A DNA stretch of 64,000 bases, from positions 1,364,001 through 1,428,000 of the forward strand of contig NZ_CP119106.1 in NCBI RefSeq assembly GCF_029643425.1, read 5' to 3'. Below, one piece after another: positions 3,377 through 38,996 of this stretch. The position numbers were made by a program, and so were the translations under genes. Position 1 is the first letter of the stretch. Every line of letters starts with the position of its first letter. Source of the stretch: Isoptericola sp. AK164 (GTDB lineage Bacteria > Actinomycetota > Actinomycetes > Actinomycetales > Cellulomonadaceae). The notes beneath the pieces were generated by a model. The model was given only the letters and a program-made list of their open reading frames with translations, was not told the DNA's origin and did not search any database.

Positions 3377-3413
3377 CCGCGCTGGTCGGGCCCGTCGTGT
3401 GACGCAGGTCCGG

Positions 3414-3443
3414 TTGGGTGCCGGGCCGCTCTTCTGGCACAAT
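3414..3443 (+). promoter_or_regulatory. Promoter of the rpsP operon
   Basis: A -35 TTGGGT (3414-3419), an 18-bp spacer and a -10 CACAAT (3438-3443) lie upstream of rpsP. The -10 context TGGCACAAT closely matches that of the rplS promoter (TGGCAGAAT, same spacer). A start near 3450 gives a leader of about 120 nt before the rpsP GTG. Inferred from sequence only. Confidence 0.6.
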
Positions 3444-33630: not shown

Positions 33631-34068
33631 ATGAGCGAGAACCCGCGGGCGCGCCGGTTGGCGGACCGCATCAAGGAGATCGTCGCGCAGATGCTCGACA
33701 CGCGGATCAAGGACCCCCGCCTCGGGTTCGTCACGGTCACGGACGTGCGTGTCACCGGCGACCTGCAGCAGGCGTCGGTGTTCTACACGGTCTTCGGCAG
33801 CGACGAGGAGCGGACCGGGACCGCCGCCGCGCTGGAGAGCGCCAAGGGGATGATCCGTTCCGAGGTCGGCAAGCAGACGGGCGTGCGGCTCACGCCGACC
33901 ATCGAGTTCCACCTGGACTCGGTGCCGGAGACCGCGGCGCACCTCGACGCGGCGCTGTCGCAGGCCCGCCTGCGCGACGCCGAGCTGGCGGCGCTGCGCG
34001 AGGGCAAGTCCCCGGCGGGCGACGCGGACCCGTACCGCACGAGCGACGAGCGCGCCGACGACGAGTGA
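33631..34068 (+). CDS. rbfA: 30S ribosome-binding factor RbfA
   Basis: The 145-residue KH-like cold-shock and assembly factor acts on the 16S 5' helix. Family pattern: [46 protein letters not shown] (split here only for reading) and [14 protein letters not shown]-like [15 protein letters not shown] 33631 follows the near-perfect Shine-Dalgarno AAGGAGG with a 4-base spacer. The tail is acidic. Confidence 0.96.
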
Positions 34069-34082
34069 CCACCACCCCGACA

Positions 34083-34149
34083 CTGTGGGCATGAAATCTG
34101 CAGTGCTGGACCCGTCCTGGCCTGCAGATTTCATGCCCACAGCTGTGGG
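34083..34149. repeat. Long perfect inverted repeat, REP/MITE-like, between rbfA and truB
   Basis: Left arm CTGTGGGCATGAAATCTGCAG (34083-34103) and right arm (34122-34142) are exact 21-base reverse complements around an 18-nt loop. The right arm overlaps a second perfect palindrome CCCACAGCTGTGGG (34136-34149). The arms are about 52 % GC against about 73 % around them and contain AAAT, rare here. There is no T run, so it is not a standard terminator. Its compact form resembles a dispersed palindromic element, but only one copy is in this window. Confidence 0.8.
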
Positions 34150-34165: not shown

Positions 34166-35125
34166 GTGGCCGAGGAGAGCTCCGGCCGTCCCGCGCGGCG
34201 CCCGACGGCGCCCGACGGTCTGCTGGTCGTCGACAAGCCGGCCGGCTGGACCAGCCACGACGTCGTCGGGCGGTGCCGTCGTTTGGCGGGGACGCGCAAG
34301 GTCGGCCACGCCGGCACGCTGGACCCGATGGCCACGGGCGTGCTGGTGATCGGCGTCGGGCGGGCCACCAAGCTGCTCACCTACGTCGTGGGGGCCGACA
34401 AGGCCTACACCGCGACGATCCGTCTCGGCGTCGCGACCACCACGGACGACGCCGAGGGAGACGTCGTCGACGCCCCCGGCGTGGACGACGGTGTGGACCC
34501 GGCGGCGCTGGACCGCGAGATCGGCCGGCTCACCGGGGACATCCAGCAGGTGCCGACCACCGTCAGCGCGATCAAGGTGGACGGCCGGCGCGCCTACGCG
34601 CGGGCCCGGGCCGGCGAGGACGTGGAGCTCGCCGCCCGCCCGGTGACCGTGAGCACCTTCGAGGTGACCGCCACCCGGCCCGCGACGTCCCACGACGGGA
34701 CCGCGGTCCTCGACCTCGACGTCGTCGTGGTCGTCTCCTCCGGCACGTACGTGCGCGCCCTGGCGCGGGACCTCGGGGCGGCGCTCGGCGTCGGCGGGCA
34801 CCTGACGGCGCTGCGGCGGACGCGTGTGGGCGGCTACACGCTCGACCGGGCCGCCACCCTCGACGAGCTCGAGGCGCAGGCCGACGCGGACGGCGTGCTC
34901 GCCACGCTGCCGCTCGGCGACGCGGCGCGCAGCACCTTCCCGGTGCGTGAGCTGACCGAGGCCGAGACCCGCGCCCTGGGCTACGGGCAGTGGGTGACGC
35001 CGACCGGGATGCGCGGGACCGTGGCGGGCCTGGGCCCGGACGGCACCCTGGTCGCCCTGCTCGAGGACACGACCCGGCGTGGCGAGCGCCTGGCCAAGCC
35101 GGTGCTGGTGCTCGCCCCGGCCTGA
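34166..35125 (+). CDS. truB: tRNA pseudouridine(55) synthase TruB
   Basis: The 319-residue enzyme makes pseudouridine 55 in the tRNA T-loop. The catalytic Asp is in GHAGTLDPMATGVLV; other motifs are GLLVVDKPAGWTSHDVV and VSSGTYVRALARDLG. GTG 34166 was chosen: the Shine-Dalgarno GGGGAGGAG precedes it and the encoded protein begins close to the conserved domain. A longer frame from GTG 34085 would translate the inverted repeat and is rejected. Confidence 0.95.
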   Translation: MAEESSGRPARRPTAPDGLLVVDKPAGWTSHDVVGRCRRLAGTRKVGHAGTLDPMATGVLVIGVGRATKLLTYVVGADKAYTATIRLGVATTTDDAEGDVVDAPGVDDGVDPAALDREIGRLTGDIQQVPTTVSAIKVDGRRAYARARAGEDVELAARPVTVSTFEVTATRPATSHDGTAVLDLDVVVVVSSGTYVRALARDLGAALGVGGHLTALRRTRVGGYTLDRAATLDELEAQADADGVLATLPLGDAARSTFPVRELTEAETRALGYGQWVTPTGMRGTVAGLGPDGTLVALLEDTTRRGERLAKPVLVLAPA

Positions 35126-36603: not shown

Positions 36604-36743
36604 AGCACACCGCGCCGCCGGGCCGTCGTCCGGTCCTCGGTAGTGGCCCCCCGATCCGCCGGTCCGCACCGGCGTGCTCCGGGGGCCTCGATCGAAGACC
36701 GTCGCTCGGGCGGGCGGCGCCTTCGAGAGCAAGGAGGGCACCC

Positions 36744-38996
36744 GTGGAGGGTCCCGAGATCCAGTTCGCCGAGGCCGTCATCGACAACGGCCGCTTCGGC
36801 ACCCGTACCGTCCGCTTCGAGACCGGCCGACTGGCCCGGCAGGCCGCCGGCGCCGTCTCCGCCTACCTCGACGGCGAGACCATGCTGCTGTCGACCACCG
36901 CGGTCGGCAAGCACCCCAAGGACCAGTTCGACTTCTTCCCGCTGACGGTGGACGTCGAGGAGCGGATGTACGCCGCGGGCCGCATCCCCGGCTCGTTCTT
37001 CCGCCGTGAGGGCCGCCCGTCGACCGAGGCGATCCTGACCTGCCGCCTCACCGACCGCCCGCTGCGCCCGCTGTTCGTCAAGGGCCTGCGCAACGAGGTC
37101 CAGATCGTCATCACGGTCATGGCCCAGCACCCGGACGACGCCTACGACGTCCTGGCGATGAACGCGGCCTCCGCGTCCACCCAGATCTCCGGCCTGCCGT
37201 TCTCCGGCCCGGCCGGTGCCGTGCGCATCGCGCTCATCGACGACCAGTGGGTCGCGTTCCCGAAGTACTCGGACAAGGAGCGCGCCGTCTTCGAGATGGT
37301 CGTCGCGGGCCGCAAGGTCACCGCCGCCGACGGCTCGGAGGACGTCGCCATCGCGATGATCGAGGCCGAGGCGACCGACGACGCGTGGAACCTCGTCAAG
37401 AACGAGGGCGCCACCGCCCCGACCGAGCAGGTCGTGGCCGAGGGCATCGACGCGGCCAAGCCGTTCATCGCCGCCCTGTGCGACGCCCAGCTCTCCCTGG
37501 CCTCGCAGTCGGCCAAGGACGTCGCCGAGTTCCCGCTCTTCCCGGACTACGCCGACGACGCCTACGCCGCCGTCGAGTCCGCGGCGTCGGCCCCGGCCAC
37601 CGAGGCGCTGGCGATCGCCGACAAGCAGCAGCGCGAGAGCCGTCTCGACGAGATCAAGGCCGGCGTCCTCGAGCAGCTGGGCGAGCAGTTCGAGGGCCGT
37701 GAGAAGGAGCTGTCGGCCGCCTACCGCAGCCTGCAGAAGCAGCTCGTGCGTCAGCGCGTGCTCACCGAGGGCGTGCGCATCGACGGCCGCGGTCTCGCGG
37801 ACATCCGCACCCTGTCGGCCGAGGTCGAGGTGCTGCCCCGCGTGCACGGCTCGGCGCTGTTCGAGCGCGGCGAGACCCAGATCCTGGGTGTCACCACGCT
37901 GAACATGCTGCGCATGGAGCAGCAGATCGACTCCCTCGGGCCGGTCACGCGCAAGCGCTACATGCACAACTACAACTTCCCGCCGTACTCGACCGGTGAG
38001 ACCGGCCGGGTCGGCTCGCCGAAGCGTCGCGAGATCGGCCACGGTGCGCTCGCCGAGCGCGCCCTGGTGCCGGTGCTGCCGAGCCGCGAGGAGTTCCCCT
38101 ACGCGATCCGCCAGGTCTCCGAGGCCCTCGGGTCCAACGGGTCGACCTCGATGGGCTCGGTCTGCGCCTCGACGCTGTCCATGCTCAACGCCGGCGTGCC
38201 GCTCAAGGCCCCCGTCGCGGGCATCGCGATGGGCCTGGTGTCCGACACGGTCGACGGGGAGACCCGCTACGCGGCCATGACGGACATCCTCGGTGCCGAG
38301 GACGCCTTCGGCGACATGGACTTCAAGGTCGCCGGCACCCGCGAGTTCGTCACCGCCATCCAGCTCGACACCAAGCTCGACGGCATCCCCGCCTCGGTGC
38401 TGGCCGCCGCGCTGGGCCAGGCGCACGACGCCCGCCTGACGATCCTCGACGTCATCGCCGAGGCCATCGACACGCCGGACGAGATGTCGCCGTACGCGCC
38501 GCGGGTCATCGCGGTCAAGGTCCCCGTGGACAAGATCGGCGAGGTCATCGGGCCCAAGGGCAAGATGATCAACCAGATCCAGGAGGAGACCGGCGCCGAC
38601 ATCTCCATCGAGGACGACGGCACGGTCTACATCGGCGCCACGGACGGTCCGAGCGCGGAGGCGGCGCGGGCGTCGATCAACGCGATCGCCAACCCGCACG
38701 TGCCGGAGGTCGGCGAGCGCTTCGTCGGCACCGTGGTCAAGACGACCTCCTTCGGCGCGTTCATCTCGCTCGCGCCGGGCAAGGACGGCCTGCTGCACAT
38801 CAGCCAGCTGCGCAAGCTGGTCGGCGGCAAGCGCGTGGAGAACGTCGACGACGTGCTCTCCATCGGCCAGAAGATCCAGGTCGAGATCGGTGAGATCGAC
38901 TCCCGCGGCAAGCTGTCGCTGGTCGCGATCACCGAGGAGGACGACAAGGCGGCCGACGCCGACGAGGCGCCGGCCACCGAGGCGAGCGAGGCCTGA
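36744..38996 (+). CDS. pnp: Polyribonucleotide nucleotidyltransferase (PNPase)
   Basis: The 750-residue phosphorolytic 3'-5' exoribonuclease has two RNase PH domains ([20 protein letters not shown] and the catalytic half with [15 protein letters not shown]), a KH domain (about 600-660, [19 protein letters not shown]) and an S1 domain (about 665-735, [21 protein letters not shown]). The start is GTG at 36744 after AGCAAGGAGGGCACCC. The 210-nt upstream region holds the rpsO terminator and a dyad. Final residues are an acidic tail. Confidence 0.98.

Follow-up and report, generated by a model that had tools for sequence, protein, structure and literature searches.

A dispersed palindromic element in Isoptericola and its apparent pairing with an AbiEi-DUF559 gene

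Introduction

To our knowledge, RAYT is the best known protein that is paired with dispersed bacterial palindromes. REP and REPIN sequences are described as short palindromes scattered singly, or as inverted doublets around a spacer, and are linked to a nuclease gene (PMC3116915), with the repeats located mostly downstream of coding regions and the RAYT genes flanked by repeats (PMC3733652). Also described are CGTC repeats, a large group without a dedicated transposase among which RPEs are counted (PMC3733652); Rickettsia palindromic elements, about 150 bp long, which occur in frame within genes (PMC10969869, PMC3733652); and AbiEi of S. agalactiae, whose own promoter contains the two 23-bp inverted repeats, separated by 3 bp, to which it binds (PMC3985639).

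Here we describe a family of palindromes in Isoptericola, one copy of which lies between rbfA and truB of Isoptericola sp. AK164. Like REP repeats, its members are dispersed and located mainly downstream of genes, and a partner gene is flanked by them; unlike REP/RAYT, the Isoptericola system has no Y1/HUH transposase, its partner being an AbiEi-DUF559 protein, shows no GTAG or CGTC tag, and has arms of about 21 bp as against the 20–40 bp hairpins of REP. The family works like REP/RAYT yet misses two of its defining features, the Y1 transposase and the tag. With Rickettsia palindromic elements it shares palindromes in frame within genes, but the Isoptericola copies lie mostly between genes, and for them we propose a partner gene. 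With the AbiE type IV toxin–antitoxin system it shares a pair of inverted half-sites, each about 20 bp long (23-3-23 in the AbiEi operator), but here a nuclease domain is fused to the AbiEi-like part, and copies of the operator-like sequence are scattered over the genome. The Vsr-fold homing endonuclease I-Bth0305I, a member of the EDxHD group, resembles the modelled C-terminal fold of the partner, but the Isoptericola gene is bracketed by palindromes, and its nuclease activity is predicted.

In the open-access literature, which leaves most subscription journals outside, the papers listed for DUF559 (by title and opening of the abstract) and for Vsr and homing endonucleases (by title) include no report of a link with palindromic repeats. 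The letters of the arm were not found in print there, the titles listed disclose nothing on Isoptericola palindromes, and no paper was found on RAYT with repetitive extragenic palindromic sequences in Actinobacteria. We consider it probable that the rbfA–truB feature is a copy of a dispersed palindromic element belonging to a repeat–nuclease pair, in which an operator would have been spread by a nuclease, with arms and protein changing together.

Results

An inverted repeat separates rbfA and truB

We analysed a stretch of 64,000 nt of the AK164 genome (hereafter the window; NZ_CP119106.1, positions 1,364,001 to 1,428,000). Pfam upholds the names of both genes at the locus, rbfA (33631–34068, + strand; RBFA, 112 bits) and truB (34166–35125, + strand; TruB_N, 160 bits), and the intercistronic site given in the original prediction is right. 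Direct reading and alignments locate a left arm at 34083–34103 (+ strand; CTGTGGGCATGAAATCTGCAG, comprising a foot, CTGTGGGC, and an inner arm), a variable centre of 18 nt at 34104–34121, and a right arm at 34122–34142 (− strand) whose reverse complement is identical to the left arm, in agreement with the perfect 21-bp inverted repeat that had been claimed. The rbfA stop lies 14 nt before the repeat, and the truB start lies 23 nt after it. By direct reading, a partial extra foot, CTGTGGG (34143–34149, + strand), abuts the right arm, and the right foot (CCCACAG) followed by this extra foot makes up the 14-bp palindrome CCCACAGCTGTGGG at 34136–34149, likewise noticed beforehand.

Inward extension of the palindrome gives 29-nt arms that are 90% complementary. 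The repeat folds at −62.7 kcal/mol, compared with a mean of −33.2 kcal/mol for 200 dinucleotide shuffles (z −8.5), and the inverted repeat is real, beyond chance. Reading of the sequence reveals no T tract at the repeat, and the repeat has no Rfam match. Further along the window, an Actino-pnp RNA (RF01688, 50.8 bits; 36629–36703, + strand) lies upstream of a long ORF at 36744, which we take to be polynucleotide phosphorylase.

The repeat is one copy of a dispersed family

The AK164 genome (3,576,703 bases, one contig) was searched with the repeat by BLAST, which gave at least 40 places (40 of 70 candidates scored), and with a covariance model trained on 41 copies, which gave at least 63 places (126 matches on both strands; 150 of 3666 candidates scored). 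The repeat is thus not unique, and the rbfA–truB feature belongs to a dispersed family of palindromic elements, as the REP/MITE part of the original prediction had suggested. The consensus comprises an arm, YTGTGGGCRTGAAATMTGCAG (21 bp), 17 or 18 variable bases with letters that vary by copy, and the inverse arm; the element is 60 bp long in 48 of the 63 copies and 59 bp long in the other 15. Most arm positions carry 1.5–2 bits of information, and the centre positions carry less than 0.85 bits. A 17-nt arm core, with at most one mismatch allowed, matches the two strands 56 and 59 times, versus 0 and 0 for a reversed-pattern control. Among the 100 arm-core matches listed (of 115), all sit within the 63 short elements, so no long element with the same ends is seen; with these 100 matches checked, the only candidate for an autonomous parent is an AbiEi-DUF559 gene bracketed by full elements.

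Where one arm changes, the other tends to change to match: the C–G pair of AAATCTGCAG, for example, is A–T in 4 of the 41 aligned copies, with zero mismatches. Pairing of the flanks beyond the arms is at shuffle level (0.516 versus 0.487). No target-site duplication was found at the element ends, where the conserved G and C belong to the palindrome; the empty moeA sites are too diverged for this purpose.

An AbiEi-DUF559 gene lies between two elements

The ORF between the element sites at 2850260 and 2851420 matches DUF559. Intact relatives, of about 300 residues, have a DUF559/MTES_1575 C-terminus, a domain of the Vsr/homing-endonuclease fold, and an AbiEi-like N-terminus (PADLOC models). Specifically, the AbiEi-like N-terminus is present in 13/13 proteins scanned with the PADLOC models, the best E of each protein lying between 2e-5 and 6e-18, and Pfam AbiEi_4 matches one protein only (E 0.024). 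DUF559 is above the Pfam cut-off in 5/5 Isoptericola proteins scanned, in 3/4 from Tsukamurella, and in the one from Nonomuraea; the three Arthrobacter proteins all give weak matches, below the cut-off. In the structure model of the partner, 194 of 296 residues have pLDDT below 50, the N-terminal two thirds being poor. The best fold match of the C-terminal model is the catalytic domain of I-Bth0305I (TMt 0.71), at an E of 0.08 with no match reaching 0.001, so that the resemblance is only suggestive. Searches of phages and viral contigs with the partner protein gave no match.

The partner gene is flanked on both sides by the element type of its own genome in 10/10 Isoptericola genomes that hold it at this locus (G000, which is AK164, G002, G017, G009, G012, G008, G014, G001 and G011, plus G015, in which one foot is decayed; genomes and loci carry our own G and L numbers). 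The TGA stop of the gene lies inside the element in G002, G014, G001, and G011, and the upstream copy lies 56–66 bp before the gene in the three genomes measured, with start codons chosen by hand. Five genomes lack the gene at the locus, which has just one element in G006 and G010 and other or decayed hairpins in G003, G004, and G013. Not in this tally are G005, whose element lies beside a run of N, and two genomes cut at contig ends, G007 and G016. A sister-genus genome, G418, has one element and no partner gene in its 3.8-kb locus. Genome-wide model matches on both strands number 126, 84, 50, 23, 31, 41, 42, 49, 0, and 6 in genomes with the gene and 0, 0, 5, 4, and 1 in genomes without it, as counted with a model tuned to the AK164 arms and uncorrected for relatedness; G011 and G015 (feet TTGTGAGC) count low despite having elements.

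The chance that a named gene is bracketed by two of the 63 elements is roughly (63/3300)^2, the figure of 3300 genes being an extrapolation from the window. The Isoptericola gene was picked for lying between two elements, and the ten genomes share one ancestral locus, so they do not represent ten independent events. In AK164 itself (L112:10355–11297, − strand), the N- and C-terminal halves of the gene lie in different frames, which may reflect either a broken gene or a sequence error; the repeat–nuclease system may thus be inactive in this strain.

Five of eight related genes outside the genus are bracketed by different repeats

Because the Isoptericola gene was first noticed between two elements, test genes were chosen by protein similarity alone. 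The test set, from a plasmid collection, comprised three Arthrobacter, four Tsukamurella, and one Nonomuraea gene, with one further Tsukamurella place left out. All eight proteins match AbiEi models. One common dispersed repeat is present on both flanks of five of the eight genes (L232, L241, L242, L231, and, more weakly, L239) and on at least one flank of six, and the arms differ for each of the five. In particular, L232 (Arthrobacter sp. ERGS1:01) has the arm TTGAGGGCCCRGATAATCC on both flanks and at 15 places in its own record, no other record being matched, and L231 (Arthrobacter sp. StoSoilB13) has, on both flanks, partial palindromes with a common 15-nt inverted arm that recurs at 41 places in the two records of the strain. 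L241 and L242, two paralogues in T. tyrosinosolvens NCTC13231, are each flanked on both sides, by two different repeats with two different arms, which recur at 20 places in 8 records and at 12 places in 9 records, respectively, all of T. tyrosinosolvens. L239, from the same strain, has single inverted 22-nt arms on both flanks (9 places in 6 records, 3/6 below E 1e-3). Of the remaining genes, L230 has a repeat on one flank only (11 places), L240 (Nonomuraea) has no flanking palindrome, and L243, which matches AbiEi and has no Pfam DUF559 match, has 27-nt direct repeats common to both flanks. Places count both palindrome strands and include the flanks, so loci are fewer than places. The L243 repeats (L243:2118–2144 and 3398–3424) are G-rich, and the Tsukamurella gene that they surround combines a strong AbiEi match with weak similarity to the partner protein.

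As a control, we surveyed 300 kb of the 754-kb ERGS1:01 record. It contains 26 strong palindromes, of which the only same-arm pair 300–1400 bp apart brackets the partner gene, and 11 of 20,000 random segments had a common repeat on both flanks. The 300 kb contain the arms 25 times, spread over 8 loci (5 convergent and 3 tandem, under incomplete annotation), with 0 control hits. The record NZ_CP012477.1 is labelled a plasmid and resembles a piece of chromosome (tilS, ftsH, serS, recR), as other megabase-size "plasmids" used here may. The pairing of the palindromic element with the AbiEi-DUF559 gene is well supported.

Many positions persist across the genus while the inner arm switches

The covariance model (E 0.01) has matches in 13/18 genomes of the genus. 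In other Isoptericola, the foot, YTGTGRGC (outer 8 bp), is kept and the inner-arm type differs between genome groups, some genomes (for example G014, G008, and G017) having more than one type. Element lengths across the genus are 58–60 or 69–71 bp. With a pattern allowing 46–76 bp, the long class accounts for 23/24 elements in G009 and 29/29 in G012 and the short class for 20/20 in G014, one 46-bp G009 match being set aside as unrelated and 2 of 25 G001 places being listed; hits per strand for the reversed control numbered 2 in G009, 1 in G012, and 0 in both G014 and G001. The length step of 10–11 bp is close to one turn of DNA, which suggests a protein on double-stranded DNA. In the 300 kb of Arthrobacter sp. 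ERGS1:01, the nearest inverted pairs are 40 bp (five times), 50, 53, and 63 bp long, the last two (2/8) falling off the 10-bp step from 40 and 50; between adjacent arms on one strand the distance is 31 bp six times and otherwise 23, 32, or 83 bp.

Five neighbouring sites in a 20-kb stretch were compared between genomes. At 2850260 and 2851420, an element of the own-genome type is present in 9/9 genomes that have both flanking genes, AK164 included. At 2858903, an element is present in G017 and G008, a half-decayed one in G002, and another hairpin in G004; at 2841117, an element is present in G002, G017, G014, and G011, a decayed one in G004, and none in G003. At 2846572, with G010 and G013 excluded for intervals kilobases long, an element is present in G017 and G008, a bare foot in G012, and none in G002, G009, G014, G003, G004, G011, and G005. 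At rbfA–truB, G017 has a copy, G002 has a GC-rich hairpin of the same length, and G010, G013, and G014 have other hairpins; 11 further genomes have no such element, the locus of G007 not being found. Positions at many sites persist across the genus while the inner arm switches. The bare foot in G012 (L165) is the palindrome TTGTGGGCGCCCACAA, at a site that holds the full element in other genomes; it may be a slippage deletion or an empty site. We considered the feet as a target of hairpin insertion and rejected this, since the bare TTGTGGGCGCCCACAA is its sole basis and slippage between short repeats explains it equally.

The persistence of positions bears on a reading in which the protein–repeat pair is real and the repeats are domesticated binding sites (for regulation, as a roadblock, or for chromosome organisation) with no present mobility. 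Genus-wide persistence at several sites, conserved arms with a drifting centre, narrow lengths, and a copy 56–66 bp before the gene wherever this distance was measured (three genomes) all fit such sites, but presence varies by species (at 2846572, rbfA–truB, and moeA), and placement at 3′ ends is odd for regulation; we judge this reading rather unlikely, though the strongest of the alternatives.

The foot pattern was sought in 396 genomes of the order and matched 16, of which 7 are in the genus; outside the genus, only G388 has more than two matches (six, one pair overlapping; 50 bp). In G388 (L226–L229), which belongs to another family of the order, the elements are 50 bp long and share the foot, TTGTGGGC, and 2 of 4 have the inner arm AGATGGTCGA; no relative of the partner protein was found in 80 kb around four of its element places. 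Separately, three genomes of genus g28 (L215–L217) have palindromes with similar arms (GAGCGGGCGTGACC and variants) downstream of the same ABC-2 permease gene, perhaps another such family.

Copies lie mostly at gene ends and lack the T tract of terminators

Genes were called with a codon-usage script, which misses short genes and makes start sites, those of partner proteins included, approximate. By these calls, the neighbouring genes of the 63 copies (the places at 2841106 and 2858892 included) are convergent for 38, tandem for 20, and divergent for 2, and the other 3 copies fall within predicted ORFs; copies are mostly directly 3′ of stop codons, mainly between convergent pairs. Of the three copies within ORFs, two are in frame, one in moeA and one in a YjeF/Carb_kinase gene (both by Pfam), and the third overlaps the 3′ end of a glycosyltransferase gene. 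At the moeA codon, aligned for 13 relatives with G002, G006, G011, and G016 left out, G009, G015, G007, and G001 have an element with other inner arms, G005 has a degenerate element, again with another inner arm, and 8/13 have no recognisable one; G017 has extra residues there, unpaired.

This placement would be expected if the repeats were bidirectional 3′-end hairpins (terminators or mRNA stabilisers) kept for RNA structure, with their likeness in sequence incidental. It is also in line with the 60-bp form having a centre that pairs at 70% (38% in shuffles), with the unrelated GC-rich hairpins that are common at the end of the same gene in other genera, and with the four relatives that have other hairpins at rbfA–truB. 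The interior of the 70-bp form, however, pairs at 0.469 versus 0.466 in shuffles (20 elements), so a continuous hairpin is dispensable, and a hairpin does not need near-invariant arms or explain the copies in moeA and the YjeF/Carb_kinase gene. In the 12 nt downstream of 96 element ends, the mean T content is 0.089 and no T run exceeds 2; the copies lack the T tract of an intrinsic terminator, and the original statement that the feature is not a terminator is borne out for a canonical terminator, at this copy and family-wide. With the 20 tandem copies read as transcribed, 8 of 20 arm mismatches are of the G.U type and 7 of the A.C type, no clear G.U excess in these small numbers. RNA structure as the selected feature was rejected on this count, on the lack of an Rfam match at this copy, and on the 70-bp interior, which pairs no more than shuffles do; on the same grounds, the conserved structured RNA offered in the original prediction is not supported. 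The covarying changes looked for are present as mirrored arm changes and lack an RNA-type pattern. We therefore regard 3′-end hairpins as an improbable explanation. The proposed binding model does not account for the paired centre of the 60-bp form.

A REP/RAYT or classical MITE family with a coincidental DUF559 link, for which the short dispersed palindromes, 3′ intergenic placement, and in-gene copies could be taken, is very improbable, given that the genome has no Y1_Tnp, that the listed arm matches reveal no long element with the same ends, and that other lineages also have DUF559 genes bracketed by repeats, each with arms of its own. The search for a RAYT/IS200-type gene gave 0 matches to PF01797 in the genome, with 5/14 control genomes positive, and inspection of the 41-copy alignment revealed no unpaired GTAG or CGTC tag at either of the symmetric ends. 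Mobilisation by RAYT, the remaining part of the original REP/MITE suggestion, was accordingly dropped.

Discussion

We favour a repeat–nuclease pair as the explanation of a family that is dispersed and narrow in length, conserves its arms, and keeps its positions while the inner arm switches, and of the bracketing of AbiEi-DUF559 genes by their own element types in several lineages. The repeat consists of two inverted arms of about 21 bp, set at a spacing that is nearly fixed and apparently helix-phased, and the AbiEi-like part of the partner would bind these arms as double-stranded DNA, the arms having the form of an AbiEi operator with two inverted half-sites. The element copy upstream of the partner gene may originally have been the gene's own operator. 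The nuclease would cut, and copying repair would then spread the operator to other intergenic sites in a homing- or REPIN-like manner, with arms and protein changing together within each lineage. The AbiEi operator form, the upstream copy, and the homing-endonuclease-like C-terminus are the grounds on which we propose this cut-and-copy spread; protein binding of the arms, cutting, the copying step, and any host benefit, such as the marking of 3′ ends, are inferred.

More broadly, and as a tentative generalisation that we hold with less than even confidence, Actinomycetota may carry self-spreading repeat–nuclease pairs, in which an antitoxin-type DNA-binding protein joined to a nuclease of homing-endonuclease fold would have made its own operator replicate as a palindrome throughout the genome, with gene-specific arms co-evolving and copies settling at the 3′ ends of genes. 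If real, the pairing would give a purpose to AbiEi-like proteins fused to DUF559, and, as a second pairing unrelated to RAYT, would provide a candidate partner for orphan repeats such as CGTC repeats. It would also offer natural protein/arm pairs in which to read how DNA specificity changes.
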